A stretch of DNA of 64,000 bases from Flavobacterium sp. ASV13 (GTDB lineage Bacteria; Bacteroidota; Bacteroidia; Flavobacteriales; Flavobacteriaceae): the NCBI RefSeq assembly GCF_000745775.1, contig NZ_JQJY01000002.1, positions 248,001 through 312,000 on the forward strand, read 5' to 3'. The number at the start of each line of letters is the position of its first letter. Position 1 is the stretch's first letter. Shown here one piece after another: positions 7,211 to 30,857 of this stretch. The notes beneath the pieces are model-generated. The model searched no databases and had not been told where the DNA came from. It saw only the letters and a program-made list of their open reading frames with translations. A program made the position numbers and the translations under genes.

Positions 7211-7364
7211 TTTATTTTTTAAAGGATTGTCATTAACATAGTTTTATATAGAAAACAACTACAAAACTAAAATATTGATGAAAAAAGGTATTGCAAGGTC
7301 AAGAATTAAAACAATATTATTTATTGTCTCTTTTAAATTCAAACTCTATTGTAAAAACCTACCA

Positions 7365-8078
7365 TTGAAAACCACAAATTGCTCATCAGTAATTTTCATC
7401 TTACTATTACTTTCAATCAACAGTTTTTCTCAAACTAATAAAAAAAAAGAAGTCTCCAATTATTTTGACAAAATAATTGGAGAAGAAATTTTAAACATCA
7501 ATAACGGCAAAATTCATATTGATCCTTATAATTTAAAAAACAGCCACAATTATTATTCAAATAAAAACTTTATCAAAGGATCTGTTTTTTATGACAGTCA
7601 ACTATACGAAAACGTTCTGATAAAGTATGATATCTACAAAGACCAACTTGTTAAATCATTTGAAAACAACAACTCATTTGGTATAACCCTCACAAATGAA
7701 AAAACAGATTATTTTTTAATCGAAGACAAACGATTTGTCAATATTGACAATAAATATAAATTCCCAAAAGTCATCACTGGTTTTTTTGAAGAAAAATATT
7801 TAGGCAAAAAAATCTCCTTATATATAAAGCACTTTAAAACGGCTAAAGAAACTATTATTGAGTCTAGTTTGTATAATGAGTTCAAAGAGTACAGCGATTA
7901 TCAACTTCTTTATAATTCAACATTTACAGCTGTAAATACTCAAAAAGAAATCCTCACAGCATTTCCTCAACTAAAAAAAGAAATAAGAGATTATTATAAA
8001 AAAAATAAAATTCCGGAGGACACAAATCCATATCAGTTCAAAGCAGATTTGATACAATTTATTGATAACAATTTATAA
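7365..8078 (+). CDS. Cassette 1 gene A: small secreted protein
   Basis: Exported protein of about 237 residues, paralog of the genes at 17640 and 24363. Shared features are an N-terminal signal peptide ending SxSQ, the pattern FxKGSxxYxxQxYxNVxxKYDIYxDQLV in the middle, a basic xxYIKxxK stretch, and xxxxFPxxKxxIxDYY near the end. No enzyme motif is recognised. Start: the frame is open back to ATG 7278, which would add 29 residues before the signal peptide. I prefer TTG at 7365 because the bases ahead of it (AAACCTACCATTGAAAA) match the TTG-start leader of copies 2 and 3 and give the same length. It begins a four-gene unit and lies 19 bases before gene B. Role unknown; likely a periplasmic partner of the receptor. 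Confidence 0.65.
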   Translation: MKTTNCSSVIFILLLLSINSFSQTNKKKEVSNYFDKIIGEEILNINNGKIHIDPYNLKNSHNYYSNKNFIKGSVFYDSQLYENVLIKYDIYKDQLVKSFENNNSFGITLTNEKTDYFLIEDKRFVNIDNKYKFPKVITGFFEEKYLGKKISLYIKHFKTAKETIIESSLYNEFKEYSDYQLLYNSTFTAVNTQKEILTAFPQLKKEIRDYYKKNKIPEDTNPYQFKADLIQFIDNNL

Positions 8079-8097
8079 GCTCTACTCCTAAATATAA

Positions 8098-10860
8098 ATG
8101 AAAAAACACTTAATCTTCTATTTATTTTTCTTACTGCCAATCATTCTTTTTTCGCAAGAAAAAAACATTTCTATAAAATATTCAAATGTAACACGAAAAG
8201 AAGCTATTGAAATAGTCGAAAAAAACACTTCTTTTCACTTCTACTTTGAGAATCAGTGGTTCTCTGACAATGAACGTATTTCAGGCGAATTCAGCAACAC
8301 ATCTATTTCAATAATTTTAGATTCTATTTTTAATAATACAACCATAAATTATATTATCGATGGAAACAATATTATTCTAAGCGATGGTCTTTTGATATCA
8401 AACGCTATAACGGAGGATTATTTTAAAAATGCTGATAACATAAATATCGGCAAAACTTCAAATTTTCAAATTGTTCCAATATACAATAAGCAATATCTGA
8501 ATGATTCTAAGAAAGATTCTGATTCAATTATTTCCCTTGGAAAACAATCTTTACTAAACGCATCTCAGTCTTACACCCTTTCCGGCTATATTAAAGACCG
8601 GGTTTCTGGAAAACCAGAATATAATATTATTGTCAAAGTAAAGGACAAAGATATAAGTACAACAAGTGATGAAAATGGTTATTATAGTTTTAGAGTTCCC
8701 GCCGGCATCAACATAATTGAAACTCAATCTATCAAACATGAATCAAAGACTAAAAAAATTGTACTGTACAGCAATGGAAAAGTTGATTTTAATTTAGATG
8801 AAAATGTAAATGCCCTGAAAGAAGTTGTTATCGAAAACAAAAGAACAAAAAATACAACTTCAGCAGTTGCAGGTCTCACAAGTATTAATGTCGAAAACAT
8901 CAAAAACGTACCTTTAATTTTAGGCGAAAGAGACATTTTTAAAGTTGCTACAACTCTGCCCGGAATAAAAACGGCGGGAGAAGGATCTGCGGGCTTTAAT
9001 GTTCGTGGAGGAAAAGACGATCAAAACTTATTTTTACTAGACAATGCTTCTCTATACAATCCATCTCACTTTTTAGGTTTCTTTTCTTCTGTAAATCCAT
9101 TTACAACAAAATCGGCCGATATATACAAAGGAAGCATTCCTGCAGAATTTGGCGGGCGTCTTTCTTCGGTTTTTGATATTAAATCTAAAAGTGGAAATAC
9201 CGAAAAAGTTTCTGGTGAAGCAGGAATTGGTCCAGTAATGAGTAACGTTACGCTCGAAATTCCGATAGTAAAAGGAAAATCAAGCTTATTATTTGGCGGC
9301 AGAGCAAGTTATTCTGACTGGATTTTGAAGACAATTAAAGATCCCGAACTGGATAATAGTCAAGCCTCTTTTTATGATTTGCTTTTGAAGTACAATCATA
9401 AAATCTCAACAAAAGATGATCTGGAAACCTCTTTATATTATAGTCATGACAAATACAGCATCAATTCAGACTCAATTTACAAATACAGCAACCTATTAGC
9501 AACAGTAAAATGGGATCATGATTTCAATTCAAAAAACAAATCTTCATTGATTGTCACTAATAGTCAATATAAATTCAACATCGATTACGATTCTCAACCT
9601 GAAAAATCATTTGATTATGGTTATAAAGTAAATGAAACTCAGTTTGTTTTTAAAATGAAATACATTCTGAATGAAAAGCATCTATTTAATTATAGCATAA
9701 GCAGCAAAATTTACAATGTTAATCCCGGTTTTCTAGAACCAACAAGCGGTGATTCTCAAATTAAACAAACCACATTAGAGAAGGAAAAAGCTTTAGAATC
9801 GGCTTTGTTTTTTACCGAAAATTATAAAGTCAATGACCAACTTTTAATCAATTTAGGTTTGCGTTATTCCTTTTATTCTGCACTTGGTCCTTCTACCCAA
9901 AACATCTATCAGGATGGACTGCCTAAATCTGAAAGAACTGTTATTAATACTAAAACTTATTCAAATAATGAATCTATAAAAACCTATGGAGGTTTTGAAC
10001 CTAGAATTTCTGCTCGTTATTTTATACTTCCAGATTTATCCGTCAAAGCAAGTTTTGACAGAACCTATCAATACATGCATTTACTGTCAACGAATACGAC
10101 CCAATCTCCGATGGATGTCTGGAAGCTTTCAGATTTAAATACTGAACCACAATCTTCTAATCAATTTTCACTGGGGCTTTTCAAAAATATAATCGAAAAA
10201 TCATTAGAACTAAGTATAGAAGGTTATTATAAACGTTCAAAAAATATTCTGGATTATAAAGTTGGTGCCGAATTATTTTTGAACAAAAACATAGAAACTG
10301 AACTTCTTCAGGGAGAAGGAAAAGCTTATGGAATTGAATTTTTGATCAAAAAGGAAAAAGGAAATTTTAATGGCTGGCTAAGCTACACGTATTCCCGAGC
10401 GCTAATAAAATTGGACAGCAGATTTGATTCTGAAAAAATAAACAACGGAGATTACTTCCCTACGAATTATGACAAACCGCATGATTTCAGCGCTATTTTA
10501 AACTATAAATTCACAAAGCGATATAGTTTGTCGACTAATTTTGTTTACCAAACCGGCAGGCCTGTCACTTTTCCAATTGGGTCATATGATTTCGCTGGAG
10601 AGGATTTTACTTTATATAGCAATCGCAATCAATATAGAATTCCAGATTACTACAGGCTGGATATAGGTCTTAATTTTGAAGGAAATCACAAAATAAAAAA
10701 ACTGGCTCATAGTTTCTGGAATCTTTCTGTCTATAATGTTCTTGGAAGAAATAATCCGTACAATGTGTATTTTGTTACAGAAGACAGAAAAATAAAGGCT
10801 TATAAAACATCCATTTTTTCTGTTCCAATTCCGACAATAACGTATAACATTAAATTTTAA
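8098..10860 (+). CDS. Cassette 1 gene B: TonB-dependent receptor with STN domain
   Basis: A 920-residue outer-membrane receptor. Order: signal peptide (1-20), STN domain (about 22-97, where signal-transducing receptors touch anti-sigma proteins), linker, carboxypeptidase-regulatory-like beta-sandwich (about 158-237, from YTLSGYIKD), plug (about 252-360, with GFNVRGGKDDQN and PAEFGGRLSSVFDI), then a 22-strand-type barrel ending in TITYNIKF with the usual terminal Phe. It should import a substrate using TonB energy. The receptors at 18416 and 25102 are close paralogs; plug and barrel end are the most conserved, the STN part and linker the least. No FecR-type anti-sigma gene lies in the cassette. 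The gene is followed by the DUF4249 lipoprotein after 18 bases. Substrate unknown. Confidence 0.9.
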   Translation: MKKHLIFYLFFLLPIILFSQEKNISIKYSNVTRKEAIEIVEKNTSFHFYFENQWFSDNERISGEFSNTSISIILDSIFNNTTINYIIDGNNIILSDGLLISNAITEDYFKNADNINIGKTSNFQIVPIYNKQYLNDSKKDSDSIISLGKQSLLNASQSYTLSGYIKDRVSGKPEYNIIVKVKDKDISTTSDENGYYSFRVPAGINIIETQSIKHESKTKKIVLYSNGKVDFNLDENVNALKEVVIENKRTKNTTSAVAGLTSINVENIKNVPLILGERDIFKVATTLPGIKTAGEGSAGFNVRGGKDDQNLFLLDNASLYNPSHFLGFFSSVNPFTTKSADIYKGSIPAEFGGRLSSVFDIKSKSGNTEKVSGEAGIGPVMSNVTLEIPIVKGKSSLLFGGRASYSDWILKTIKDPELDNSQASFYDLLLKYNHKISTKDDLETSLYYSHDKYSINSDSIYKYSNLLATVKWDHDFNSKNKSSLIVTNSQYKFNIDYDSQPEKSFDYGYKVNETQFVFKMKYILNEKHLFNYSISSKIYNVNPGFLEPTSGDSQIKQTTLEKEKALESALFFTENYKVNDQLLINLGLRYSFYSALGPSTQNIYQDGLPKSERTVINTKTYSNNESIKTYGGFEPRISARYFILPDLSVKASFDRTYQYMHLLSTNTTQSPMDVWKLSDLNTEPQSSNQFSLGLFKNIIEKSLELSIEGYYKRSKNILDYKVGAELFLNKNIETELLQGEGKAYGIEFLIKKEKGNFNGWLSYTYSRALIKLDSRFDSEKINNGDYFPTNYDKPHDFSAILNYKFTKRYSLSTNFVYQTGRPVTFPIGSYDFAGEDFTLYSNRNQYRIPDYYRLDIGLNFEGNHKIKKLAHSFWNLSVYNVLGRNNPYNVYFVTEDRKIKAYKTSIFSVPIPTITYNIKF

Positions 10861-10878
10861 TTCATTTATCACATCAAT

Positions 10879-12051
10879 ATGAATTTATCAATCATCAAAA
10901 AAACGACGCTGGCTTTTTTTTCGTGTGTTATTTTATCGGGCTGTACAGAACAATATGTTTTTCAAAACCAAGATTTTGAAGACGCAATGACTGTTGAAGC
11001 CACAATAACAAACGAATTAAAATATCAGGAAATAAACATTTCAAGAACAAGATTTCTTAACGATACAGTAAAAAAATCCGAATCTGGAGCTAACGTTATT
11101 GTTGTTGATAGCGATGGTAATGCATTTCATTTTGACGAAAAAAACGGGAAATATATTTCTGCAAATGAATTTAAAGCTGAACCAAATAAGACCTATCAAT
11201 TAAAAATAACAACCAAATCCGGAAAATCATACATTTCTTCTCCAGAAGTTTTAACAACACAAAACACTATTGACCTAGAAACAGAAATTGCAGAAAAAGA
11301 CGGCGCTAGAGGCGTTCAAGTAAACGTTAAAAGTTTTGACCCTTCAAATACTTCAAAATATTATCGTTACGAGTATGAGGAAACCTATAAAATAATAACT
11401 CCATATGCGGTCGATGACCGTATTAAATTGGTACAACAAAATGGCCATTACATCTACCAAAAAGTTCCTGTCGATACAAACATCAAAGTTTGTTACACCA
11501 CCAAGCATTCTACAGGAATAAGACAAACCAATACGATCAATTTAACTGAAGATCGTGTAAAATATCCTGTCCGTTTCATCAACGACACCGATTACATGTT
11601 AACAAATCGCTACAGCATTATGGTTTTTCAATTTACACAAAGCCAATCTGCATATGATTATTATTATAAATCAAAAAAAATGATTGATTCAGGAGAGTTA
11701 TTATCTCCAAATCAGCCTGGATATGTTGTGGGAAACATAAAATCGACATCGGATATCCGGGAAAAAGTTGTTGGATTTTTTGAAGTTGCTTCTGTCTCTA
11801 AAAAAAGAATCTTTTTTAGTTTCAAAGATTTTTTCCCTTCCGAAAAACCAACCGAATATTTTAAAACTTGTGATGCCAGACTCTTTGGCTTTGATGAAAT
11901 AGAAAAAAATAATTATGAGTTGCTTAAAACACATGAATTTCTTGGAGATGGTCCCGGATTAACTTCTACAGGATTCTACATGGTTGAAAAGGCATGCGGA
12001 GATTGTACATCATTTTCTTCTAACGTAATACCTTCATTTTGGGAAAATTAA
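10879..12051 (+). CDS. Cassette 1 gene C: DUF4249 lipoprotein
   Basis: A 390-residue lipoprotein: lipobox LSGC places the lipidated Cys at residue 22. It then reads CTEQYVFQNQDFED, VEATITNELKYQE, a repeated beta-strand pattern and KPNKTYQL-like turns, which are the hallmarks of DUF4249. DUF4249 proteins are regularly encoded next to TonB-dependent receptors, so the likely place is the outer-membrane surface over the receptor, comparable in position but not in sequence to SusD. All three cassette copies end in CGDCTSxSSNxxPxFW, with a conserved Cys pair. The last codons overlap the start of gene D by 13 bases. The ligand is unknown. Confidence 0.88.
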   Translation: MNLSIIKKTTLAFFSCVILSGCTEQYVFQNQDFEDAMTVEATITNELKYQEINISRTRFLNDTVKKSESGANVIVVDSDGNAFHFDEKNGKYISANEFKAEPNKTYQLKITTKSGKSYISSPEVLTTQNTIDLETEIAEKDGARGVQVNVKSFDPSNTSKYYRYEYEETYKIITPYAVDDRIKLVQQNGHYIYQKVPVDTNIKVCYTTKHSTGIRQTNTINLTEDRVKYPVRFINDTDYMLTNRYSIMVFQFTQSQSAYDYYYKSKKMIDSGELLSPNQPGYVVGNIKSTSDIREKVVGFFEVASVSKKRIFFSFKDFFPSEKPTEYFKTCDARLFGFDEIEKNNYELLKTHEFLGDGPGLTSTGFYMVEKACGDCTSFSSNVIPSFWEN

Positions 12052-13727
12052 ACATAAAATTAGCTTTTTTACTGTTATTAGTAAATTTCACTTATAAAAG
12101 CAGTGCTCAAAATAATACTGTTTTGAGTACAGAATCAGTATTAGTCAAAACCAATACCTCGGTGGTATTAACTGGCGAAACGATATACTATCAATTATAC
12201 TGTTTAAATAAAACAACTGTTTTTTCTGACATTAGTGAGCTTGCATATTTAGAAATAATTAATGATCATAAAGAAAGTGTTTTCAAAACTAAAATTAGTT
12301 TAAAAAACGGAATTGGATCTGGGGATTATTTTATTCCAACAATATTAACAACAGGAAATTATAAACTTATTGCTTATACGAACTGGATGTTAAACAACAG
12401 TCAAAATAACTTTTTTGAAAAAGACTTTACCATTATAAATCCATTTGAAGAACATATCAATATGGTTATTGATAGCACTTCAAAGAAACTTGACGTCTAT
12501 AAAAACGAAACAAAAAACACATCTGAAAATATCTCCTTAAACCTTGACAAAGAAAAATATTCGAAGAGGGAAAAAGCGACACTTTTACTGCCAAAAACAT
12601 TGGACAGAGGAAATTACTTTTTAAATATCAGAAAAATAGATTTTATACCTGAATACCCAAATAACGAAACTATCAATACTAATATAAATTTAAAAGAAGA
12701 TATAACGGTTCTTCCAGAAACAAGAGGTGAAATCATAACTGGCTATATAACATCGAAAGTTGCCAATTCTGATTTAAACACTAAAATAGTTACACTTTCT
12801 ATTCCAGGAAAAAATTTCATCTTCAAAACGACCAAAACAAATAGCAACGGAAAATTTATTTTTTTGATAGACAAGCAAACCAGTACATCGGGCTGTTATG
12901 TGCAATTATCAGGAACTAACAGAGAAAATTATATTATTGAAATAGACAAAACACCAAGTCCGGATTTATCAAATTTAATTTTCTCCAACAAAACATCAAT
13001 TTCTGCTAAAAACTTAAAAGCGATTCAAGAACGCTCATTGGCGTCGCAGGTAGAAAACGTTTATTTTTCGCAAAAAAAAGATAGCCTGATCGAAGCCAAC
13101 AATACCGACTTCTTTTTTCAACCTACCGAAAAAAAATACAATCTAGATGATTTCGAAAGATTTAGAACCTTTAAAGAAACCATAGTAGAAATTGTAACCG
13201 AACTTAATTTTAAAGATTACAATCAAGTTCCTTCACTATATTTAAGAGATATCAAATACAATATAACACAATCGCCAGAACCCTGCCTAGTTTTGGTTGA
13301 TGGATTGCAAATTCAGAATATAAATGCATTACTTAATTACAATGCTTTTCAAATTGAAAGTATTAGCGTTGTTGACAGACCTTATTGTTATGGCCCTAAA
13401 ATATTCAACGGAATTGTTTGTATCATTACAAAAAACAAAGATTTTGCGACTATTTATATTGACAAAAATATTCTAAAAACGACCATCCTTAGACCAGAAT
13501 CGGCAAAAGTATATTTTGAACCGAAACATGAAGCTCCTAATACACGCAGCCGAATTCCTGACTACAGATATCAATTACTTTGGAAACCTAATATTGCTTT
13601 TAACAATAGCGAAATGAGCATCCCATTTTATGCCTCTGATATTTCTGGAGATTATGAAATCATATTGGAAGGACTTACAGAAACGGGAAAGAATGTTCGT
13701 TTTTATAAAACATTCAAAATTGAATAA
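12039..13727 (+). CDS. Cassette 1 gene D: MG2-like/plug-like secreted protein
   Basis: A 562-residue exported protein starting at TTG 12039 inside the last codons of gene C (13-base overlap, the same in all three copies). After the signal peptide an MG2-like beta-sandwich follows (about 25-140: TGETIYYQLYCLN, GNYKLIAYTNWMLNN), then a carboxypeptidase-regulatory-like domain (about 225-300, PETRGEIITGYI) and near the C-terminus a TonB-plug-like segment (CLVLVDGLQIQNINALL, YGPKIFNGIVCIITKN). There is no barrel behind the plug segment, which is unusual. The C-terminal IPDYRYQLLW and YEIILEG motifs are shared with copies 2 and 3. Probably periplasmic or surface exposed; the function is unknown. 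Confidence 0.75.
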   Translation: MGKLNIKLAFLLLLVNFTYKSSAQNNTVLSTESVLVKTNTSVVLTGETIYYQLYCLNKTTVFSDISELAYLEIINDHKESVFKTKISLKNGIGSGDYFIPTILTTGNYKLIAYTNWMLNNSQNNFFEKDFTIINPFEEHINMVIDSTSKKLDVYKNETKNTSENISLNLDKEKYSKREKATLLLPKTLDRGNYFLNIRKIDFIPEYPNNETINTNINLKEDITVLPETRGEIITGYITSKVANSDLNTKIVTLSIPGKNFIFKTTKTNSNGKFIFLIDKQTSTSGCYVQLSGTNRENYIIEIDKTPSPDLSNLIFSNKTSISAKNLKAIQERSLASQVENVYFSQKKDSLIEANNTDFFFQPTEKKYNLDDFERFRTFKETIVEIVTELNFKDYNQVPSLYLRDIKYNITQSPEPCLVLVDGLQIQNINALLNYNAFQIESISVVDRPYCYGPKIFNGIVCIITKNKDFATIYIDKNILKTTILRPESAKVYFEPKHEAPNTRSRIPDYRYQLLWKPNIAFNNSEMSIPFYASDISGDYEIILEGLTETGKNVRFYKTFKIE

Positions 13728-14449: not shown

Positions 14450-14469
14450 TTCCTGACCATAATACAAGT

Positions 14470-14510
14470 ATCTATTTTAGCAATTACGATTGTTAAAATA
14501 GATGCTTTTT
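14470..14510 (+). terminator. Terminator after the 131-aa gene
   Basis: ATCTATTTTAGCAAT pairs with ATTGTTAAAATAGAT (one G-U pair) around a 4-base loop, followed by GCTTTTTC. It runs over an in-frame ATG at 14502, which argues that the next gene starts further down. Confidence 0.85.
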
Positions 14511-14543
14511 CATTCAAATTATCGAAACAACTCAAGAGATAAA

Positions 14544-17639: not shown

Positions 17640-18413
17640 TTGAAAAATTCCCAAAAAAAGAATACCATATTCATCTTATTTGGTTTATTCTTAAACATTA
17701 TATCCATCTATAGCCAAAATAACAGCAATACGATATCGATTCATAATCTCTTTGACAAGACTGTAGAAAATGAAAATTTACCGATATTCAATGGGCCTCG
17801 TTATATCAATTATTATAGATCTTTAGACAATACACATTGTTATTACATCTCTGGTAACTTTATTTCCGGAGATTTAAACTATCAAAATCAAAGCTATTAC
17901 AATGTAGATTTAAAGTATGACATTAATAATGATGTTTTAGTACTTAAGCCTATTGGCAAATTCGATTATTTAGGCATTAGTCTTATAAAAGATAATGTTG
18001 GTAGTTTTAAAATCTATGACAAACAATTCATTAACATCAATTATAACAATCCTTCATGTCCCGCTTTTATGAATGGATATTATCAGGAAATTATATTTTC
18101 TAAAGACAATATTTTATACATCAAGCATCATAAAAACAGAACAAAAGTAATTGACAACAAATCAATTGCAGAAGGCTCTAATCAATCTACAACAGATTCA
18201 TTTATAGAAAAAAATGAATTTGTATTGAAATACAAAAATACTTACTACAAAATAGCATCAAAAAATGATGTCATTAAAATTTTCCCCGAATATAAAAGCA
18301 AAATAAAAGATTATTACAGTAATAACGATCAATTAGAAGAATCAGATAACAAAGTCTTTATTGAAAATTTAATAAAGGAAATCAACAATTTTCTAGTCCC
18401 TGAATCTAATTAA
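17640..18413 (+). CDS. Cassette 2 gene A: small secreted protein
   Basis: A 257-residue paralog of the cassette 1 and 3 A genes. It starts at TTG 17640; no ATG exists between the promoter and the signal peptide, and the bases around the start (ATCCTTTGAAAAATTCC) are the same in cassette 3. Signal peptide ends IYSQ. The middle has GDLNYQNQSYYNVDLKYDI and the end has FPEYKSKIKDYY, the family signature. The copy has extra Ser/Asn/Thr-rich residues around 180-195. Gene B starts 3 bases after its stop. The product is probably periplasmic; the function is unknown. Confidence 0.75.
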   Translation: MKNSQKKNTIFILFGLFLNIISIYSQNNSNTISIHNLFDKTVENENLPIFNGPRYINYYRSLDNTHCYYISGNFISGDLNYQNQSYYNVDLKYDINNDVLVLKPIGKFDYLGISLIKDNVGSFKIYDKQFININYNNPSCPAFMNGYYQEIIFSKDNILYIKHHKNRTKVIDNKSIAEGSNQSTTDSFIEKNEFVLKYKNTYYKIASKNDVIKIFPEYKSKIKDYYSNNDQLEESDNKVFIENLIKEINNFLVPESN

Positions 18414-18415
18414 AA

Positions 18416-21178: not shown

Positions 21179-21190
21179 TCATCAAAATAA

Positions 21191-22414
21191 ATGAATTTTA
21201 GAATCCAGCATATTAATCACTTGTACAAGATATTGTTTTTTACAATTTTCTGTCTTTCTTTTAGTAGCTGTACTGAGCAATACGTTTTTCAGACCAATAC
21301 ATTTGAAAGCATTTTGGTGGTTCAGGCAAATATTACAAATGAATTAAAGAAACAAGAAGTAAAACTTACCAAATCATACCGTCTTGAAGAAAACGGACCA
21401 ACTTTTGAAAAAGGAGCAAATGTTTATGTAACTGACAGTGAAAACAATAATTATGAATTTGAACTTGAAGATTTTTCAGGTCTTTATGTTTCAAAAAATC
21501 CTTTTCAGGCAGTTCCGGGAAGATCGTATCAATTAAATATTACTACCCAAGATGGTAAATCCTATTCATCTGCTTTACAAACTTTAACTTCAGTTAGTGA
21601 AATTAATGTAGAACCAAAAGTAGAAACAGTGGACGATGTGAAGGGTGTACAAATAATGGTCAGCAGCAATGACCCTACTGCAAGTTCAAAATTTTATAGA
21701 TTTGAATACGAGGAAACATACAAAATCGTATCGCCTTACTGGAATCCCAACAAACTTATCGTGGATCCAAGTATGATCAATGATCCAGAGCCTAATTTTC
21801 TTGTTGTTCCAAGGAATAAAGAAACAAGAGTTTGTTACACGACAAAAAAATCAGATGATTTAATCTTAATTAGCAATGCGGGACAAAGCGAAGATCGTAT
21901 CAATTTTCCGATACGTTTCATAGAGATGACAAGCCCTCTTCTTAATGAACGATATAGCATTATAGTACGCGAGTATGTACAAAGTTCTGAATCTTATACT
22001 TATTATAAAACATTAAAAACGCTTTCTACTTCTTCTAGTTTATTTTCACAAGTACAGCCTGGATTTAATTACGGAAATATCAAAAACAATGACGACCCTG
22101 AAGAAAAAGTAATAGGCTATTTTGAAGTCTCATCTGTTTCTTCAAAAAGAATCTTTTTCAATTTTAGAGACATCTTCCCAGTCGAGCCATATCCGCCGTT
22201 CTTTATGGAATGTCAACCGCAAGAATTAAGCAATTGCTGGGATGCAAAAGGCTGTGCTGGCGCCACCATATTGGCCCTAGTTAAATCTCCTGTGCCTGAA
22301 AAAATATATTATGGTAGCCGCCTTAATATGGATATAATAGTCTTTGTTCCAACTCCGTGTGGTGACTGCACCAGTGTTTCATCTAACATAAAACCTTTAT
22401 TTTGGATAGATTAA
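21191..22414 (+). CDS. Cassette 2 gene C: DUF4249 lipoprotein
   Basis: A 407-residue lipoprotein with lipobox FSSC (lipidated Cys at residue 27), followed by TEQYVFQTNTFES, VQANITNELKKQEVKLTKSY and VPGRSYQLNITTQDGKSY of the DUF4249 family. It carries an insert with three Cys (QPQELSNCWDAKGCAGA, about 345-360) not present in copy 1. The end CGDCTSVSSNIKPLFW is shared with the other copies. The final codons contain the TTG start of gene D. It is probably anchored on the outer face of the outer membrane next to the receptor. Confidence 0.88.
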   Translation: MNFRIQHINHLYKILFFTIFCLSFSSCTEQYVFQTNTFESILVVQANITNELKKQEVKLTKSYRLEENGPTFEKGANVYVTDSENNNYEFELEDFSGLYVSKNPFQAVPGRSYQLNITTQDGKSYSSALQTLTSVSEINVEPKVETVDDVKGVQIMVSSNDPTASSKFYRFEYEETYKIVSPYWNPNKLIVDPSMINDPEPNFLVVPRNKETRVCYTTKKSDDLILISNAGQSEDRINFPIRFIEMTSPLLNERYSIIVREYVQSSESYTYYKTLKTLSTSSSLFSQVQPGFNYGNIKNNDDPEEKVIGYFEVSSVSSKRIFFNFRDIFPVEPYPPFFMECQPQELSNCWDAKGCAGATILALVKSPVPEKIYYGSRLNMDIIVFVPTPCGDCTSVSSNIKPLFWID

Positions 22415-24153
22415 AAAAAATTATACGCACAATTATGTTGATAGCTGTAAATGCAGCTATTGCACAAAGTGGTTCATTGGCTAAAAATGAAACTACGGAA
22501 TTAAACATCGAAAATATATTTGTTCACGCCAACAATACAACATTAGTAGCGGGAGAAACCCTGCATTGCAAATTTTATTGTTTAAATTCACCTAAGAATA
22601 ATTTTAGTTCTATTAGTAAAATTGCACATGTAGAACTTATAAACAACGAAAATCAGGTAATTTTTGCCAACAAAATCTATCTTGAAAATGGCACTGGCGA
22701 AGGTGATTTTTTTATTCCAACAACAATCGAAACAGGCAATTACAAATTAATTGCTTATACGAATTGGATGTTAAATAACACAAACACCAAAACAGCTGTA
22801 ACCGATCTTATTATTATTAACCCTTACATTGTTAGTACTAGAAAAAAACCTGTTTCTAAAACTCAAAATGACCAGGAGAAAAATCAGGAAAATCAATCAA
22901 TTACAACAAACTCTTCAGCAAAAGATCAATCTTTTGCCTTAGAATTAAATAAAAAAGTTGCCACAAAAAGGGAACAAATTTTACTTAAAATAAAATCATT
23001 AAACGGAATTGCCAACAATGGAAACTTTTCTCTTTCGATAAGAAAAACGAATAGTTTACCTTCAAAAAAACAGATGAATTCATATGAATTCACAAAATCT
23101 TATAGTGGTGAAACGTTAAATAACAATTCATTTTTTCTACCCGAACTTCGTGGAGAAGTCATATCAGGAACTATTAAAAACAATAAAGATCCAAAGCAAA
23201 TAGCCGACAAAAACATTGCCTTATCCTTACCTGGTAAAGATTTTGCTTTTAAAGTTGTTAAAACAAATGAAGAGGGAAAATTTAATTTCATATTAGAAAA
23301 GAGCCCAAATTATTCTAATGCAATTATTCAGGTTGTCGGAGAAGACAAAAATGATTATGCGGTTGAACTTGACAAATACGAAGGATACAATCTATCTGAA
23401 TTAAAACAAGGTGAAGAATTTTATCTTAGCTCTGATTATAAGGCTAGTCTTGAAGAAAGATCGATTGCAAATCAAATAGAGAATTCGTATTATCATTTAA
23501 AAAAAGACAGTATACAGCCGGAGATTAAAAAGTTTCCATTCTATCATCCTCTGGAAAAAGAATATATTCTTGGAGATTATACCAAATTTCCAACCTTGAA
23601 AGAAACAACCATAGAAGTAGTTAAGGAAATGTATTATCGAGAAGAAAACAAAAATTTCACATTACATGTTAGAGACATAAATTATGATCTTAATTTTTTC
23701 TCTGAACCTTCATTAGTGTTGGTCGATGGAGTATTAATTCAAAACACAAATGAATTAGTTGATCTTAAAATGGATGAAATTTACAAAATCAGCCTAGTTC
23801 CAGGAGTGTATATTTATGGACCAACTGCGTTTGATGGCATCATCAATTTTACTTCAAAAAACAATGATTACAGCACCAAAGAAAAAGGTTCTCATATTTT
23901 AAAAACGGATATTCAAAGACCTTTGAACAAAATAACATCTTTTAAACAAGATTATACGAACAAAAGCAAATATGATCGTGTTCCTGATTACAGATATCAA
24001 TTGCTTTGGGAGCCTGAATTGTTATTAGATAGTAATGAAAAAACAATTTCATTCTTTACTTCTGATGTTCCCGGACAATATGAAATAAATTTAGAGGGAT
24101 TTACAAAAGATGGAGTTCCAGTATCGCTAAAAGAAAGTTTTGAAGTAAAATAA
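22402..24153 (+). CDS. Cassette 2 gene D: MG2-like/plug-like secreted protein
   Basis: A 583-residue paralog of the D genes at 12039 and 29072. It starts at a TTG that overlaps the gene C stop by 13 bases. Signal peptide (LIAVNAAIAQ), MG2-like domain (about 30-145, VAGETLHCKFYCLN and IETGNYKLIAYTNW), a Gln/Asn/Ser-rich linker (about 150-175), regulatory-like domain (LRGEVISGTI), and a plug-like segment (SLVLVDGVLIQNTNELV, YGPTAFDGIINF) without a barrel. Ends with VPDYRYQLLWEPELL and YEINLEGF. Function unknown. No terminator is evident after it; 209 bases separate it from the next gene A. Confidence 0.75.
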   Translation: MDRLKKIIRTIMLIAVNAAIAQSGSLAKNETTELNIENIFVHANNTTLVAGETLHCKFYCLNSPKNNFSSISKIAHVELINNENQVIFANKIYLENGTGEGDFFIPTTIETGNYKLIAYTNWMLNNTNTKTAVTDLIIINPYIVSTRKKPVSKTQNDQEKNQENQSITTNSSAKDQSFALELNKKVATKREQILLKIKSLNGIANNGNFSLSIRKTNSLPSKKQMNSYEFTKSYSGETLNNNSFFLPELRGEVISGTIKNNKDPKQIADKNIALSLPGKDFAFKVVKTNEEGKFNFILEKSPNYSNAIIQVVGEDKNDYAVELDKYEGYNLSELKQGEEFYLSSDYKASLEERSIANQIENSYYHLKKDSIQPEIKKFPFYHPLEKEYILGDYTKFPTLKETTIEVVKEMYYREENKNFTLHVRDINYDLNFFSEPSLVLVDGVLIQNTNELVDLKMDEIYKISLVPGVYIYGPTAFDGIINFTSKNNDYSTKEKGSHILKTDIQRPLNKITSFKQDYTNKSKYDRVPDYRYQLLWEPELLLDSNEKTISFFTSDVPGQYEINLEGFTKDGVPVSLKESFEVK

Positions 24154-24266: not shown

Positions 24267-24362
24267 TATTTTATCGCATTTTAACAGTTTTAACTGCCAT
24301 TTATAACTTTTTTTTAATACTTTTGAAATTAACCAAAACTAAACCAAAAATCCACCAATCCT
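24267..24362 (+). promoter_or_regulatory. Conserved upstream region of cassette 3
   Basis: Counterpart of 17544-17639. The most constant parts are CATTTTAACAGTTT, TAACTTTTTTTTAATA and AATCCACC-ATCCTTTGAAAA. The -7 box is TACTTTTG (24318-24325). The -33 position has no TTG in either copy. The duplicated promoter implies that cassettes 2 and 3 are separately transcribed and co-regulated. Confidence 0.6.
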
Positions 24363-25082
24363 TTGAAAAATTCCAAAAAAACGATACTATTACTATGCTT
24401 ATTTGGATTATTATTAAACATTCCTTCGATACACAGTCAAAGTATCAAAGAAACCGAAATCTTCAATTGGTTTGATAAAAATGCAGGAATAGAATCCTTA
24501 GACATTAAAAATGGTCCTGCGCATTTAAACTTTGACAGAACGATTGGCAATCAGCACAGATACTATGATGCTGATGAATTCAAAAAAGGAAGCATTAACT
24601 ACAATGGTCAAGATTATTTTGATGTATACTTAAAATATGACATCTTCGCTGATCAACTTGTTTTACGCCCTTATGATCTGCAAAACACCACGAAAATAGA
24701 TCTCATAAAAGCAAACATTACTCATTTTAAGATTGGTGATGAAAACTTTGTAAAACTAAAAGACTTGAACAATTCTTCTTTTAAAGGTGGTTATTATAAC
24801 GAAACTGTAATCAAAAATAATCAAGCGCTTTATATTAAATATTACAAAGAAAAAAAGAAAAATATCAAGGAAGAATTAGACTTGGTCGACTATAAGCCTC
24901 GGTATGAATTTATTTTATGGAAAGACAGCAAATTCAATTTAATCAATGAAAAAAAAGAAATTATAGCTCTATTCCCTGAAAGTAAAAGAAATATAAATGA
25001 TTTCTATCTCATGAATAGAAGTTTACGAAAAGAAAACCCTCCATTATTCATGAAAAACCTGATGAAATACATTAATAATTAA
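24363..25082 (+). CDS. Cassette 3 gene A: small secreted protein
   Basis: A 239-residue paralog of the other A genes. TTG start as in cassette 2, signal peptide ending IHSQ, then IFNWFDKNAGIESLDIKNGP, FKKGSINYNGQDYFDVYLKY and IALFPESKRNINDFY. It is the clearest member of the family, which appears near TonB receptors in other Bacteroidetes as far as I recall. No catalytic motif is seen. It lies 19 bases before the receptor gene. Confidence 0.75.
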   Translation: MKNSKKTILLLCLFGLLLNIPSIHSQSIKETEIFNWFDKNAGIESLDIKNGPAHLNFDRTIGNQHRYYDADEFKKGSINYNGQDYFDVYLKYDIFADQLVLRPYDLQNTTKIDLIKANITHFKIGDENFVKLKDLNNSSFKGGYYNETVIKNNQALYIKYYKEKKKNIKEELDLVDYKPRYEFILWKDSKFNLINEKKEIIALFPESKRNINDFYLMNRSLRKENPPLFMKNLMKYINN

Positions 25083-25101
25083 AACCCGAAGAAACATACA
25101 A

Positions 25102-27840
25102 ATGAGAATATTTACTATCCTTTTATTATTTTTCGGTTTTAATCAGATTCTGCATTCACAAGGCGAAAAAAAGACAATAAACCTTACGTTCAACAATATA
25201 AACAGAGTGGCTGTTTTGGAGAAAATTGAAGCTTCAACTTCATACAAGTTTTATTTCCAAGACAATTGGTTTGATAAAAACGTATTAATTTCTGGAGATT
25301 ATCAAAACAAAACTATTGAAGAAGTTTTGTCTAAAGTTTTACAAGATACTGAGCTTAATTTTTACATTAGTAAGAATAAAATCATATTGACAAAAAACAG
25401 CATCATTTATGATAAGTTTCAAAACAATAAAAAAGATGCAAATGCTCCAATCTTTTTCCAGCAATATGATTCGGTCAAAAAAGACAAATCCGGAACAACA
25501 GCTCCAATTGCATTAATTGGAAAAGAAGCTGTTGATTCAGAAGTGGATTTATATACTTTATCTGGTCATATTACGGACCTGAAAGATGGAAAACCTTTGG
25601 CCGATATTAATGTCAAAGTAAAAAACACCGCTATAATTTCGACCACCAATGCCGAAGGTTTTTATAGTTTTAAACTTCCAACAGGGCTAAGCACAATTGA
25701 AGTTGAATCATTATTTTACAACAGTACTTCCAGAAAAATAATGATTTACAGTAATGGTACATTAGATTTTTCTGTTATTGAAAAAATCAATCAGTTAGAC
25801 GAAGTTTTAGTAAAAGGAAAAGACAATCAAAACATTAGAACTGCCATAACAGGAGTTACAACAATTGAAGCTGAAGGCGTAAAAACTATTCCTTTAGTTC
25901 TTGGAGAGCGAGATGTCTTGAAAGTTGCATTAACAATTCCTGGTATCAAAACGGCAGGCGAAGGATCTTCTGGATTCAATGTCAGAGGCGGAAAAGAAGA
26001 TCAAAATTTAGTATTACTGGACAATGCTACGATTTACAATCCTATGCACCTTTTTGGCTTTTTCTCTTCAATAAATCCTTATACAATCAACAAAGTTGAT
26101 ATTTACAAAGGAGGAATTCCTTCTGAATTTGGAGGGCGTTTATCTTCTGTTTTTGATATTGTTTCTAAAAATGGAAATACCGAAAAGATTTCTGGAGAAG
26201 GAGGAATTGGACCAGTAACCAGCAATCTTACTCTTTCTGTACCTGTTGTAAAAGACAAAGCAAGTTTGTTAGTTGGCGGACGCGCAACCTATTCGGATTG
26301 GATTTTAAAAACCTTAGATGACGAAAGATTAAAAAACAGCCATGCTTCTTTCTATGACCTATTTGCCAAATACAATCATAAAATCAACAAAAACAATTCG
26401 GTTGAAGGAACAGGTTATTACAGCAAAGATTCTTATACCTTGACTCCAGACTCGTTATTTAAATACAGCAACAGATTAGTTTCATTGAAATGGAAACACG
26501 CCTTCAACGAAAAAAACAATAGTGAATTCAATGTTACAAATAGTGAGTACAAATACAGCATTAAATATCAATCTATTAATCCTGAGTCTTTTCTTTTAAA
26601 ATATAAAATAAACGAAAGTCAGGCCGTTTTAAAATTTGGCAGCGAGCTTAATGCAAAACATAAATTAACTTATGGAGTTTCGACTAAACTTTATAAAGTA
26701 AATCCTGGAGAATTGTCTCCATATGGAGAAACCTCAATAGTCACTCCAATTACTGTTGAAAATGAAAAAGGATTGGAATCAGCCGCTTTCTTATCTGATA
26801 AATTTCAAATTTCTGAAAAAATATTATTAGATATTGGGGCCCGATATTCTTATTATATGGCTCTTGGCCCATCAACGCAAAATATTTATCAGGAAGGCGT
26901 GCCAAAAACGCCTGCAACTGTAATTGAGCAAAAAACGTATGGTAATAACGAAGTAATTACCCGAAATGGTGGTTTTGAGCCAAGAGTCGGTTTGCGTTAT
27001 ATTTTTAACGAAAGTCTTTTTGTAAAAGCTGGTTTCGACAAAAACTACCAATACATCCATTTGCTCACAAACAATACGACTCAAGCACCAACTGATACTT
27101 GGAAATTATCTGATTTGAATGTAAAACCTGAAAGCGGTTTACAATATTCGTTGGGTATATTCAAAAAACTGGAGTACAATGATCTTGAATTAAGTCTTGA
27201 AGGATATTATAAAACTTCAAAAAACATTTTAGATTATAAAGTAGGATCGCAGCTTCTTTTAAATCAAAATTTAGAGACCGAATTACTTCAAGGTGATGGA
27301 AAAGCTTATGGAATTGAGTTTTTATTAAGAAAATCGATCGGAAGACTTAATGGTTGGATTGGTTACACCTATTCGAGGTCATTCATAAAATTAGACAGTC
27401 AGTTTAATGATGAAAAAGTAAACAACGGTGAATATTTTCCAAGTAATTTTGATAAACCACACGATTTCAGCATTGTAATGAATTACAAGTTTACGCATCG
27501 TTACAGTTTTTCTTCTAATTTTGTATATCAAACAGGAAGACCAATCACTTATCCTATTGGAAAGTATTATTACAGTGGTGCAGAATACACCTTATATACC
27601 GACAGAAACAAATTCAGAATACCTGATTATTACCGTTTAGATATTGGATTAAACATTGAAGGAAACCATAAGATTAAGAAATTAGCACATAGTTTCTGGA
27701 ATATTTCGATCTATAACGTATTGGGCAGAAACAATCCGTATTCAGTCTTTTTTGTAACCAAAGATGGTCAAGTAAAAGCTTATCAAACCTCAATCTTTGC
27801 AGTTCCAGTACCAACTATTACTTATAATTTTAAATTTTAA
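25102..27840 (+). CDS. Cassette 3 gene B: TonB-dependent receptor with STN domain
   Basis: A 912-residue outer-membrane receptor with the same order of parts: signal peptide (ending LHSQ), STN (about 24-96), regulatory-like beta-sandwich (from YTLSGHITD, about 152), plug with GFNVRGGKEDQN and PSEFGGRLSSVFDI, and barrel ending TITYNFKF. It is as similar to copy 2 as to copy 1, which points to an old triplication rather than a recent tandem duplication. Five bases separate it from gene C, so translation may be coupled. Substrate unknown. Confidence 0.9.
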   Translation: MRIFTILLLFFGFNQILHSQGEKKTINLTFNNINRVAVLEKIEASTSYKFYFQDNWFDKNVLISGDYQNKTIEEVLSKVLQDTELNFYISKNKIILTKNSIIYDKFQNNKKDANAPIFFQQYDSVKKDKSGTTAPIALIGKEAVDSEVDLYTLSGHITDLKDGKPLADINVKVKNTAIISTTNAEGFYSFKLPTGLSTIEVESLFYNSTSRKIMIYSNGTLDFSVIEKINQLDEVLVKGKDNQNIRTAITGVTTIEAEGVKTIPLVLGERDVLKVALTIPGIKTAGEGSSGFNVRGGKEDQNLVLLDNATIYNPMHLFGFFSSINPYTINKVDIYKGGIPSEFGGRLSSVFDIVSKNGNTEKISGEGGIGPVTSNLTLSVPVVKDKASLLVGGRATYSDWILKTLDDERLKNSHASFYDLFAKYNHKINKNNSVEGTGYYSKDSYTLTPDSLFKYSNRLVSLKWKHAFNEKNNSEFNVTNSEYKYSIKYQSINPESFLLKYKINESQAVLKFGSELNAKHKLTYGVSTKLYKVNPGELSPYGETSIVTPITVENEKGLESAAFLSDKFQISEKILLDIGARYSYYMALGPSTQNIYQEGVPKTPATVIEQKTYGNNEVITRNGGFEPRVGLRYIFNESLFVKAGFDKNYQYIHLLTNNTTQAPTDTWKLSDLNVKPESGLQYSLGIFKKLEYNDLELSLEGYYKTSKNILDYKVGSQLLLNQNLETELLQGDGKAYGIEFLLRKSIGRLNGWIGYTYSRSFIKLDSQFNDEKVNNGEYFPSNFDKPHDFSIVMNYKFTHRYSFSSNFVYQTGRPITYPIGKYYYSGAEYTLYTDRNKFRIPDYYRLDIGLNIEGNHKIKKLAHSFWNISIYNVLGRNNPYSVFFVTKDGQVKAYQTSIFAVPVPTITYNFKF

Positions 27841-27845
27841 CCGTT

Positions 27846-29084
27846 ATGAAAAAAGTCTTTATAGTTAGATTTCTAATAATAACTTTATTTTTATCGGTAT
27901 TGGGTTGTACAACGCCATACGATTACCAATCTAGTAGCGCTTATGAAGATGTTATTGTAATTGAAGCAACTATCACAAATCAAAATAAAACTCATGAAGT
28001 AAAAGTTACAAGAGCCTATAAGCTTGATGAAAAAACGCCAACTTTTGAAACTAATGCTACTGTTTTTGTTACCGATAATATGGGCAATAAATACGATTTC
28101 AAACAAAATGCTGAAAATTATACTTCTGTTGCTCCGTTTCAGGCCGCTCCAGATAGGCAATATCAATTGCATGTTCGCACTAAGGATGGAAGAGATTATG
28201 TTTCAACCACTGAAAAACTACCACAACAAACTAATATTGAAAGTGTAGAAGCCAAAGCAAAAACCAAAAACAATCAGCTTGGTATTGAAATCACTGTAAA
28301 TAGCACAGATCCTACAAATAGCTCGCATTATTACAGATATGAATATGACGAAGCTTATAAAGTTGTAGCACCAAAATGGTATGCTCAAAAAGCTGTCCCT
28401 GTTTTTTTTGCTCCTGGTTCTAATCCTCCAGGAAAAGTGGTTTTTGAGGACAGAACAACTGAAGCAAGAATTTGCTACTTAAGCCAAAGTTCAAACGAAC
28501 TGATTTTAACCAGCACAAGCGATTTATCTGAAGATAAGGTAATCAATTTCCCTGTTCGATTTATTGCCAGTACTGATCCTATTATAAGAAACAGATACAG
28601 CATATTGGTAAAACAATATGTGCAAAATCTTGCTGCACATACTTTTTTCGCAACATTAAAAGAGATATCTAATATAGGAAGCATCTTATCACAAACACAG
28701 CCAGGATTTTTTTACGGCAACATTCAATCAGTTGCTAATCCAAAGGAAAAAGTTATTGGTTATTTTGATGTGTCGTCATATTCTGAAAAAAGGATTTTTT
28801 TCAATTTCACTGACTTGCTAAATGGCCAGCCATTCCCAGAATACCAATATGAATGTCCTTCTCCAATTCCAGATATTTCTAGAGGAGAATATATATTCAA
28901 ATACTGCTTTAGCCAAGATCCATTACTGGAATGTCAAGGAGATGTAATATTAAATTTATTGGCCAGCGGCATTAAAGTCTTTTATCCGACAGAATTACCC
29001 AATAACTATATTTTGTATCCAGTAGAATGCGGAGACTGTACTTCATTTTCATCAAACGTAAAACCACCATTTTGGATAGACTAA
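27846..29084 (+). CDS. Cassette 3 gene C: DUF4249 lipoprotein
   Basis: A 412-residue lipoprotein with lipobox VLGC (Cys at residue 21), then TTPYDYQSSSAYED, IEATITNQNKTHEVKVTRAY and APDRQYQLHVRTKDGRDY. A Cys-containing insert (about 335-375) resembles the insert of copy 2 in place but not in sequence. The conserved end CGDCTSFSSNVKPPFW overlaps the gene D start. Expected at the outer-membrane surface as the receptor partner. Confidence 0.88.
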   Translation: MKKVFIVRFLIITLFLSVLGCTTPYDYQSSSAYEDVIVIEATITNQNKTHEVKVTRAYKLDEKTPTFETNATVFVTDNMGNKYDFKQNAENYTSVAPFQAAPDRQYQLHVRTKDGRDYVSTTEKLPQQTNIESVEAKAKTKNNQLGIEITVNSTDPTNSSHYYRYEYDEAYKVVAPKWYAQKAVPVFFAPGSNPPGKVVFEDRTTEARICYLSQSSNELILTSTSDLSEDKVINFPVRFIASTDPIIRNRYSILVKQYVQNLAAHTFFATLKEISNIGSILSQTQPGFFYGNIQSVANPKEKVIGYFDVSSYSEKRIFFNFTDLLNGQPFPEYQYECPSPIPDISRGEYIFKYCFSQDPLLECQGDVILNLLASGIKVFYPTELPNNYILYPVECGDCTSFSSNVKPPFWID

Positions 29085-30787
29085 AATACATATTATATCT
29101 AGCGCTCGCTTTTAGCAGCCAGCAGATTGTATTTGCTCAAAAAAACAATTCTGTAAATGAACTGAATGAAGTTGACAAAAAAATTAATGAGTCAATTTAT
29201 ATCAGCACAAATGCAAATTCTTTTTTGACAGGCGAAACTTTGCAATACAAATTATTCTGTATCGACAAACTAGCAAATACTGCTTCAATTTTCAGCAAAA
29301 TAGCTTACGTACAGTTAATTGACAATAATAAAAAAACGGTTTTTGCACATAAATTGTTTCTTGATAAAGCAACAGGAAATGGTGACTTTTTTATTCCAAC
29401 CACATTGGAAACCGGAAGCTACAAATTGATTGGTTATACAAACTGGATGCTTAATAAAACTGTACCGGATTATTTTTCTACCGATATTTACATTGTAAAT
29501 CCGTATAAAGAAAATCCAAGTGGCAGTACAGTTTCGTACAATTCCGTTTCTTCAGAAACTGTAAACAACAGCAATATTTCATTTGATATAAAAAACAAAT
29601 CTTACAATACACGAGATTTGATTGAACTAAATGTCAAATCAAATTCTGACGAATTTACAAAAGGAAATTATACTTTGTCCGTTAGAAAAACAGATGGTTT
29701 TTTAGTTCAAAACAAAGCAATTTTTAGCGGTAAAACCTACCAAAATGGCGAAATCACAAGCGGCCAATTTGTATTGCCTGAATTGCGAGGTGAAATCATA
29801 ACAGGAAAAATATCTTCGGCAAATGCTGAAATTAAAAACAAAAAAGTAGCACTTTCTATTGTTGGAAAAAATGCCGACCTGAAAATTGTAAAAACCGATG
29901 ATCAAGGCAAATTCATTGTTATTTTAGAAAAAGAGAACTCAAATTCAAATATTATCGTTCAAGTTCTTGAAAGCGGCAAAGAAGATTATGTAATTGAAAT
30001 TGATAAACAAAAGGACGTAGATTTTTCTAATTTAACTTTTCCTGTCGTTCAATTCAATTCAGATTTCAAACAAAATATCACTGACCGCTTAATTTCGACT
30101 CAAGTTGAAAATGCTTATTATGATGTCAAAAAAGATAGCGTAATATCACCGGCAATAGCTCTTCCTTTTTTCGGAGCAAAATCTGAAGAATTTATATTAG
30201 ATGATTTTACGCGATTCCCAAATATCGAGGAAACAATTACAGAAATCCTAAAAGGTGTTTACTATCGAAAAAACGATAATATTTACTCCATTCATGTTTT
30301 TGACAATAATGATAATTATGAATCGGCATTACCAACCATGATTATTGTTGATGGATTAATTATTGAAGACTTAAATGAGTTTTTTGCCTTTAATCCTAAG
30401 AGTCTTTTTAAAGTAAATGTAGTGCGAGGAATTTATTATTATGGCTCAAAATCTTTTAATGGAATCGTTTCGTTCACAACAAAAAATGGTGATTATGATA
30501 CTAAACTCAAAGGAAAATTTATTGTTAGGCCAGAAATTTTAAGACCTCAGGTAAAGAAAAACTATTTTAGTCCTGATTACATAAGCAATAAGAACGTAAG
30601 AATTCCAGATTACAGACATCAGCTTCTATGGCAGCCAAACATTGATTTGAGCAAAACATCAAATAGTAAATTTTATGCTTCTGATGTATCAGGAAAATAT
30701 GAAGTGACACTTGAAGGATTTTCAGCTTCTGGAAAACCCGTTTTTATAAAAGATTTCATAGAAATAAAAGAAGAAGCCAGCAATTAG
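29072..30787 (+). CDS. Cassette 3 gene D: MG2-like/plug-like secreted protein
   Basis: A 571-residue paralog of the other D proteins. The frame is open 15 codons further up to 29027, but TTG 29072 is chosen because it is the base-for-base equivalent of the copy 1 and 2 starts (TTTTGGATAGA) and gives a normal signal peptide (ending VFAQ). MG2-like domain (TGETLQYKLFCID, LETGSYKLIGYTNWML), regulatory-like domain (LPELRGEIITGKI), plug-like segment (TMIIVDGLIIEDLNEFF, YGSKSFNGIVSFTTKN), and IPDYRHQLLW near the end. It closes the third cassette and is followed by a strong terminator. Function unknown. Confidence 0.75.
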   Translation: MDRLKYILYLALAFSSQQIVFAQKNNSVNELNEVDKKINESIYISTNANSFLTGETLQYKLFCIDKLANTASIFSKIAYVQLIDNNKKTVFAHKLFLDKATGNGDFFIPTTLETGSYKLIGYTNWMLNKTVPDYFSTDIYIVNPYKENPSGSTVSYNSVSSETVNNSNISFDIKNKSYNTRDLIELNVKSNSDEFTKGNYTLSVRKTDGFLVQNKAIFSGKTYQNGEITSGQFVLPELRGEIITGKISSANAEIKNKKVALSIVGKNADLKIVKTDDQGKFIVILEKENSNSNIIVQVLESGKEDYVIEIDKQKDVDFSNLTFPVVQFNSDFKQNITDRLISTQVENAYYDVKKDSVISPAIALPFFGAKSEEFILDDFTRFPNIEETITEILKGVYYRKNDNIYSIHVFDNNDNYESALPTMIIVDGLIIEDLNEFFAFNPKSLFKVNVVRGIYYYGSKSFNGIVSFTTKNGDYDTKLKGKFIVRPEILRPQVKKNYFSPDYISNKNVRIPDYRHQLLWQPNIDLSKTSNSKFYASDVSGKYEVTLEGFSASGKPVFIKDFIEIKEEASN

Positions 30788-30810
30788 TTTTATTCTGATC
30801 AAAACATCCA

Positions 30811-30857
30811 AATAAACCTCTGTTTCTAAATTTGAAATAGAGGTTTATTTTTTTTCT
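30811..30857 (+). terminator. Terminator after cassette 3
   Basis: AATAAACCTCT pairs with AGAGGTTTATT, extended inward by TTTC/GAAA, and is followed by a long T-run. It separates the cassette region from the sigma factor gene. Confidence 0.9.

Follow-up and report, generated by a model that had tools for sequence, protein, structure and literature searches.

A widely conserved four-gene form of the DUF4249 receptor system in which two members are unassigned and probably periplasmic

The window analyzed here, a stretch of 64,000 nucleotides from Flavobacterium sp. ASV13 (contig C2:248001-312000 of a genome of 5.28 Mb in 21 contigs), carries three copies of a four-gene cassette, A-B-C-D, all on one strand (7365-13727, 17640-24153, and 24363-30787 by open reading frame, ORF, analysis), in which A encodes a small secreted protein, B a TonB-dependent receptor with an STN region, C a lipoprotein of the DUF4249 family, and D a protein of macroglobulin-like, CTD-like, and plug-like parts. 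The cassette is a genuine variant of the DUF4249 receptor system and is widely conserved; two of its members, A and D, are unassigned and probably periplasmic. DUF4249 proteins are present in 67 of the 118 genomes of the phylum that were sampled and are nearly unstudied in the literature searched; no report of the four-gene set was found in that search, in which long result lists were partly covered and subscription papers were mostly outside. We propose, at about even chances, that the cassette encodes a TonB-dependent importer whose lids are DUF4249 proteins, with A and D in the periplasm taking the place of FecR at the periplasmic face of the receptor.

Conservation, coupling, and age of the set

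A sequence-only reading of the window had placed three A-B-C-D copies in the same orientation, starting at 7365, 17640, and 24363, and all twelve ORFs are found in these places (Table 1). It had described them as a tandem array ending at 30857. Direct adjacency is a property of copies 2 and 3 only, copies 1 and 2 being about 3.9 kb apart, with four ORFs in between (a 131-aa ORF, a TPR histidine kinase, a LytTR regulator, and an 83-aa ORF), and the third D ends at 30787. Copy-to-copy identities are 34-37% for A (E 5e-26 to 2e-33), 56-58% for B, 35-43% for C, and 37-40% for D, a resemblance by BLASTP far beyond chance. No further D was found in the source genome, the fourth match (E 0.13), in a frame of 1007 aa, being confined to 53 residues of plug-like sequence. 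The B and D proteins and the second and third A are 93-100% identical to those of Flavobacterium resistens (L035/L036), C 79-97%, and the first A 86%, so the source genome is a close relative of that species.

The suspicion of a fixed four-part module is borne out well beyond the genus, with A, B, C, and D together in the same order in six GTDB families of the bacterial class, the distant families possessing a long D of about 800 aa. In one variant D comes before C (L214), and in L094 the order is A-B-C-D-B-C-D. Within a sample of 61 genomes of the genus, all 24 short-type D genes (E below 1e-100, from 18 genomes, window included) stand in the order A-B-C(1-3)-D, weaker D matches being long MG2-plug relatives. 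The same complete order is found in 76 of the 80 named loci (the best 80 of 359; Flavobacterium for the most part, with a few assigned solely to a higher rank); the other four (L145, L195, L201, L208) show B-C-D, with B starting so close to the edge of the available sequence (66-199 nt) that an A would fall outside it. B is followed directly by C in all 80, C being assigned by a profile built from the cassette C family. The named loci overlap the genus set (e.g., L041, L159), and these counts are thus not independent. Across 296 genomes of the phylum, 26 of the 27 D rows at E<=1e-40 have their own A nearby on the same strand, including one genome with a broken A (G116), the second set of L094 being without A; most of these rows were inspected as loci and six (G084, G233, G302, G265, G229, G127) were paired with an A row by position. 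Likewise, all 29 A rows at E<=1e-25 are beside a D, genomes without an inspected locus being judged by position (one contig and strand, within about 6 kb of D). Cassette-type A and D are thus not found mostly apart from B and C: they are tied to them, and their superfamilies are not.

The coupling of the genes is also seen in their arrangement and pairwise distances. The overlap of C and D, which had been claimed as a kept feature, is 13 nt in all three copies of the window if D starts at TTG, and 64 of 80 cassettes have such a TTG 13 nt inside C; in 5 others the two genes overlap by ATGA, and 11 are arranged differently. The conserved terminal FW of C partly accounts for the TTG of D, and the codon is therefore not independent evidence. 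For A, TTG is the sole candidate start near the signal peptide in 47 of 80 cassettes, ATG in 11, and either in 3, with none assigned by script in 19. Between A, B, C, and D, pairwise distances show correlations of 0.80-0.94 and, after ranking and removal of the distance of rpoD (67 loci) or pnp (34 loci), of 0.33-0.64 (A-D 0.64/0.54, B-D 0.59/0.64, A-B 0.57/0.56 with the rpoD/pnp control), pnp being the better control since rpoD is nearly invariant (mean distance 0.009). The four genes evolve jointly.

The copies are not young. In a tree of B (87 rows, FastTree, local support), copies 2 and 3 belong to separate Flavobacterium clades, with 12 and 7 other rows respectively and support of 100 for each, while copy 1 forms a long, deep branch by itself, of uncertain placement, its near-orthologues in L036 and L039 not being included. 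From the separation of the B copies, the array consists of old, kept paralogues. A recent tandem duplication is rejected, as copies 2 and 3 fall with other species, each into a supported clade of its own. The cassette keeps a stable place on the chromosome: rpoD is present in 74 of the 80 named loci and downstream in 70 of the 76 with a complete cassette, and pnp is upstream in 42 of the 80 (both gene names were assigned by us from the sequences). With these neighbors stable, there is no evidence for a mobile element.

Table 1. Cassette genes and neighboring features of the window
Feature	Position	Strand	Description
A copy 1	7365..8078	+	small secreted protein; TTG start; in-frame ATG at 7278 gives a longer form; signal peptide by eye
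B copy 1	8098..10860	+	TonB-dependent receptor: STN-like region, CarbopepD_reg, Plug, barrel (Pfam)
C copy 1	10879..12051	+	DUF4249 lipoprotein with CxxC tail; PF14054 E 1.8e-34; lipobox and tail by eye
D copy 1	12039..13727	+	macroglobulin/CTD/plug protein; TTG start within end of C; no Pfam family over cut-off
131-aa protein	14054-14449		matched by neither Pfam nor NCBIfam; relatives present at 4 of the 80 named loci
Kinase-regulator pair	14502-17022		TPR histidine kinase and LytTR response regulator
A copy 2	17640..18413	+	ORF, homology to other A; AlphaFold2 model, pLDDT 81
B copy 2	18416..21178	+	STN-CTD-plug-barrel receptor; PF07660, PF13715, PF07715, PF00593 over cut-off
C copy 2	21191..22414	+	DUF4249 lipoprotein; PF14054 E 3.9e-41
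D copy 2	22402..24153	+	MG2 E 5.6e-5, below Pfam cut-off; model, pLDDT 76
A copy 3	24363..25082	+	ORF, homology to other A copies
B copy 3	25102..27840	+	receptor; CTD and Plug over cut-off, STN below, barrel not listed (Pfam)
C copy 3	27846..29084	+	DUF4249 lipoprotein; PF14054 E 6.7e-50
D copy 3	29072..30787	+	TTG start, 13-nt overlap with C; alternative ATG at 29027; no Pfam family over cut-off
Sigma factor pair	30948-32970		extracytoplasmic function (ECF) sigma factor, then 493-aa protein

An STN receptor without FecR and its DUF4249 partner

CarbopepD_reg_2 and Plug are recognized in all three B proteins and a barrel family in the first two, the third aligning with both over its full length though its barrel is unlisted among the Pfam matches. 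The STN domain (PF07660) is over cut-off in the second copy, below it in the third, and not listed in the first, whose STN region gives a weak FecR_C match (E 0.012). The first B also matches OMP_b-brl_4 over cut-off (33.2 versus 30 bits), a barrel family that we take to be linked to the receptor Oar, and it possesses a stretch, LKEVVI, that resembles a TonB box by eye. No solved relative of the second B was found by sequence. As the sequence-only reading had it, the copies have drifted most in STN (32-42% identity) and least at the plug (65-73%) and barrel end (first part 52-58%, last part 70-73%), to which we add that the STN-CTD linker (18-33%) and the CTD (35-45%) have drifted as well.

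In the receptor type named after FecA-FecR-FecI, an STN receptor comes with FecR and a sigma factor. The STN region is recognized by profile in 125 of 129 cassette-type B proteins, and FecR is found within 4 kb in one of 119 loci with cassette-type B and D (L084, on the opposite strand). This set, in which many genomes occur twice, includes the non-cassette L283, with D on the other strand, and leaves out five of 124 loci (L093, L101, L102, L103, L299) with no B-D pair at the thresholds. In the named loci, about 0.5-3.3 kb upstream of A were covered, at least 1.2 kb in 76 of the 80 cassettes, so that a directly upstream gene would show. For comparison, 40 non-cassette DUF4249 loci were chosen by hand, mostly from the upper part of the match list, with known cassettes left out. 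A cassette-like B is present in 34 of them (none in L234, L235, L241, L249, L284, L286), and STN in six of these 34 receptors. Outside the cassette, DUF4249 receptors are mostly part of two-gene loci. Five of the six STN receptors (L239, L240, L252, L294, L300; not L299) have an ECF sigma factor and FecR directly upstream, confirmed by Pfam in L239, L240, and L252, with the STN of L300 visible in the B profile only. FecR is beside none of the 28 receptors without STN, the one in L301 being near a different receptor. A receptor class that is elsewhere paired with FecR thus keeps its STN in the cassette without FecR, with A in that slot and D downstream, and it is this anatomy that leads us to propose docking of A and D on B.

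The pairing of receptor and DUF4249 protein, which had been taken as established for the phylum, is indeed published for BT2172/BT2173 (PMC11003636). All three C proteins of the window match DUF4249 (PF14054) and no other family over cut-off; no SusD family match was found in C at E<=1, nor a solved relative of the third C by sequence. Across 113 C proteins the tail is strongly conserved (CxxC in 111, CGDC in 104, terminal FW in 112), and a loose lipobox pattern is present in 103. Cassette C proteins are about 380-430 aa long versus 270-350 aa for most non-cassette ones, the orphans of L234 and L235 and the C of L297 also being long. Among 80 complete cassettes, 51 possess one C gene, 25 two, and 4 three; four C genes are found in L145, L201, and L086. 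The long, cassette-type C orphans of L234 and L235 have no B or D recognized nearby, and both are from one genome, G158, which also has two full cassettes. At L093 (22-7692), one long C adjoins a run of three different D-like genes.

Proteins A and D and a proposed mechanism

None of the cassette proteins scanned (five from the window and two from relatives) is named over the NCBIfam cut-off. In the model of the second D, secondary structure suggests an MG2-like domain (residues 36-139), a second macroglobulin (MG)-like domain (178-232), a CTD-like stretch (252-323), a plug-like part (about 380-490), at whose start an ETIIEV-like stretch, a possible TonB box, is helical in the model, and a C-terminal MG-like domain (533-583). 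This model matches complement C3 (Z 18.7, 217 residues, 2.5 A), as well as C5, alpha-2-macroglobulin (A2M), and bacterial A2M; as shorter C3c chains align at about 33-236 only, the two N-terminal domains and the last domain of D would be those that match, and the middle would not. MG2 is found in 16 of 20 D proteins at E<=5 and is over cut-off only in the long D proteins of L086, L088, and L091 (three of the seven long cassette D proteins with A that were scanned), and CarbopepD_reg_2 in 7 of the 20 at E<=5 (best 0.005). Plug matches have E values of 0.016 (L085), 0.14 (L091), and 0.18 (one of the 20 members), the Cir plug 0.14, and the solitary D relative of L054 matches Plug over cut-off (E 1.4e-5). 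When profiles of D and B are aligned, the two stretches come in the same order, the CTD (31.2) scoring above all 30 shuffles and the plug (26.9) just above the best of them (26.0), the top score (36.6) being the signal peptide. No match to a bait region, a thioester domain (PF07678), or an A2M domain (PF00207) was found in the 20 short D proteins, which, at about 580 aa, are too short for the full A2M domain set. D is thus predicted to consist of macroglobulin domains around a receptor-like CTD and a barrel-less plug; on this prediction it would look like a complement/macroglobulin protein cut short and fitted with an extra plug of the transporter kind. At L283 (8263-11031), a two-gene B-C locus lacking STN has beside it, on the other strand, a 922-aa D with a near full-length match.

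A is a small secreted protein with no recognized fold. Its first copy has no Pfam match, no PDB sequence match was found, and the model of the second copy has no usable fold match in PDB (Foldseek best E 0.28, VIA-align best Z 3.8), a weak fold search that is no proof of a new fold. Like D, it possesses a signal peptide and no lipobox by eye. Distant A-like proteins also stand alone in another family of the phylum (L220-L224, L229), in all six cases beside or one gene from a gene of 1401-1405 aa, presumably a DNA polymerase subunit from the resemblance of its N-terminus.

In the mechanism that we propose, each cassette would form one outer-membrane import complex, with B as the energized channel and C as a surface lipoprotein that lies on B as a lid and binds the substrate, with one to four versions as alternatives. 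A and D, from their signal peptides and lack of a lipobox, would act in the periplasm. D would be a scaffold of macroglobulin domains that bears a CTD like that of the receptors and a plug with no barrel, and the overlapping start would couple its production to that of C. D, with A, would dock on the STN-CTD-plug assembly of B, in the place that FecR has in STN receptors, and would gate the plug during transport or receive cargo. We infer import, the lid position, and the use of TonB by analogy, from the families involved, and docking of A and D from anatomy alone. Compared with the sequence-only reading, what is added is a multi-domain D with a CTD by its plug, the old age of the paralogues, the frequent multiplication of C, and an STN without the usual FecR. 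If correct, the four-part form would add a periplasmic side to lipoprotein-assisted import, and the cassette would offer a testable answer as to the role of an STN domain without FecR.

A number of observations weigh against the importer with A and D at the receptor. Long MG2-plug relatives of D stand alone (L053, L054, L101, L103) and broader relatives of A occur where B and C are absent, which means that neither family is restricted to the cassette. Of 38 weaker A rows (one a fragment of the broken A), 19 were inspected, in 17 loci (L217-L233), and no cassette B, C, or D was found beside them, although the receptor in L226 and L230, a generic one, weakly matches B (5e-9 and 1e-8) and D (2e-4). 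A is absent from L100 and the second set of L094 and broken in L099, though B-C-D is kept, and L299 consists of B-C and a weak, 500-aa D without A, which makes A the less fixed of the two and the one more often lost. The plug in cassette D proteins is seen as weak matches only, over cut-off solely in the solitary relative, and profile comparison found no homology of D to A2M beyond MG2. A sigma factor is within 4 kb in 27 of the 119 cassette-type loci, in a set that repeats many genomes and with the short upstream reach given above for the named loci. Mirror-tree correlations, in turn, cannot fully strip out shared history.

Of the rival explanations, one that we consider unlikely is that the cassette is mainly a sensor, the STN of B signaling via A and/or D to a regulator, such as the kinase-LytTR pair, in replacement of FecR and its sigma factor. 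Retention of STN despite the absence of FecR, the position of A in the gene slot of FecR, and the kinase-LytTR pair, which 13 of 76 named loci have upstream of their cassette and 3 have downstream of it, all agree with such a role, but A has no transmembrane stretch after its signal peptide (by eye) and no regulator family match, 63 of the 76 loci show no pair upstream (at most 3.3 kb covered), and the downstream ECF sigma factor, with its 493-aa neighbor, is present in only 21 of the 76. Less credible again is an ordinary two-gene B-C importer, with A and D as bystanders that have their roles elsewhere, perhaps as envelope proteins of a general kind. Among the non-cassette loci examined, most of those with a B (28 of 34) are B-C loci that lack STN, and the solitary A-like and D-like proteins and the missing or broken A genes would fit it as well; against it are the order kept in six families, the overlap and distance correlation in 80 Flavobacterium-type cassettes, and the absence of A from all 40 non-cassette DUF4249 loci and of D from all but L283 and L299. 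The least probable is TonB-dependent export, with B exporting a protein and A as cargo or co-factor: Oar of Myxococcus, a CTD-plug-barrel receptor that serves secretion of the protease PopC, shows such use to be feasible (PMC6434023), the first B has its OMP_b-brl_4 match, and A is secreted and fast-evolving, but having a DUF4249 lipoprotein as partner suits the capture of external ligands, no family of proteases or surface proteins is matched by A, and the CTD architecture, which dominates in Bacteroidetes (same source), is by itself uninformative.

A bolder version of the importer reading, which we rank as improbable, between the bystander and export explanations, makes D a mobile spare plug, a macroglobulin-like arm that would offer its CTD and plug to the barrel of B, exchanging with or holding open the plug of B, for large or structured cargo chosen by the C lid, with A as an STN-bound trigger. 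If true, this would be a new gating mode for TonB-dependent transporters.

Neighboring genes and comparison with known systems

In the neighborhoods of the named loci, 11 chosen neighbor proteins were sought, and further recurrent neighbors may exist. Of the pair downstream of the third copy, the 493-aa protein has an anti-sigma-like N-terminal part and a transmembrane stretch (by eye) and a weak C-terminal match to an outer-membrane barrel. The remark that no glycan enzyme stands beside the cassettes holds for the 18 window proteins between 6044 and 32970, among which Pfam recognized no glycan-active enzyme, the flanks of related loci not being scanned. A sigma-70 promoter scan gave 106 matches versus a mean of 95 (sd 8.7), near chance, with a model unsuited to the phylum.

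The cassette shares parts with a number of known systems. In BtuBG and SusCD, a TonB-dependent barrel comes with a surface lipoprotein partner. The likeness to SusCD is in the receptor, which is SusC-like and has both CTD and plug in each of the three copies, but C lacks the SusD family and the scanned window proteins lack glycan enzymes. The likeness to the FecA type is in the STN of the receptor, and the source genome itself possesses a sigma-FecR-B-C locus with STN and DUF4249 (G000:C5, L252); the cassettes differ in lacking FecR, with A in its slot, and in possessing D. D is likened to the A2M proteins (those of E. coli and Salmonella, and the 1889-aa A2M of the source genome, L257) by the MG-domain folds of its model, but bait, A2M, and thioester matches are lacking, and its CTD- and plug-like stretches are not seen in the A2M of the source genome. 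XusAB is another TonB-dependent barrel with a lid-like surface lipoprotein (PMC13142918); unlike XusB (DUF4374) or BtuG, C is a DUF4249 protein, and the cassette adds two predicted periplasmic proteins. A further parallel is BT2172/BT2173 of Bacteroides thetaiotaomicron, a TonB-dependent transporter beside a DUF4249 protein in a conserved operon, disruption of either having similar consequences (PMC11003636). What is described there is a system of two proteins, with no A or D mentioned in the passages on the pair; compared with it, the C of the cassette possesses a long extra tail and the B an STN domain.

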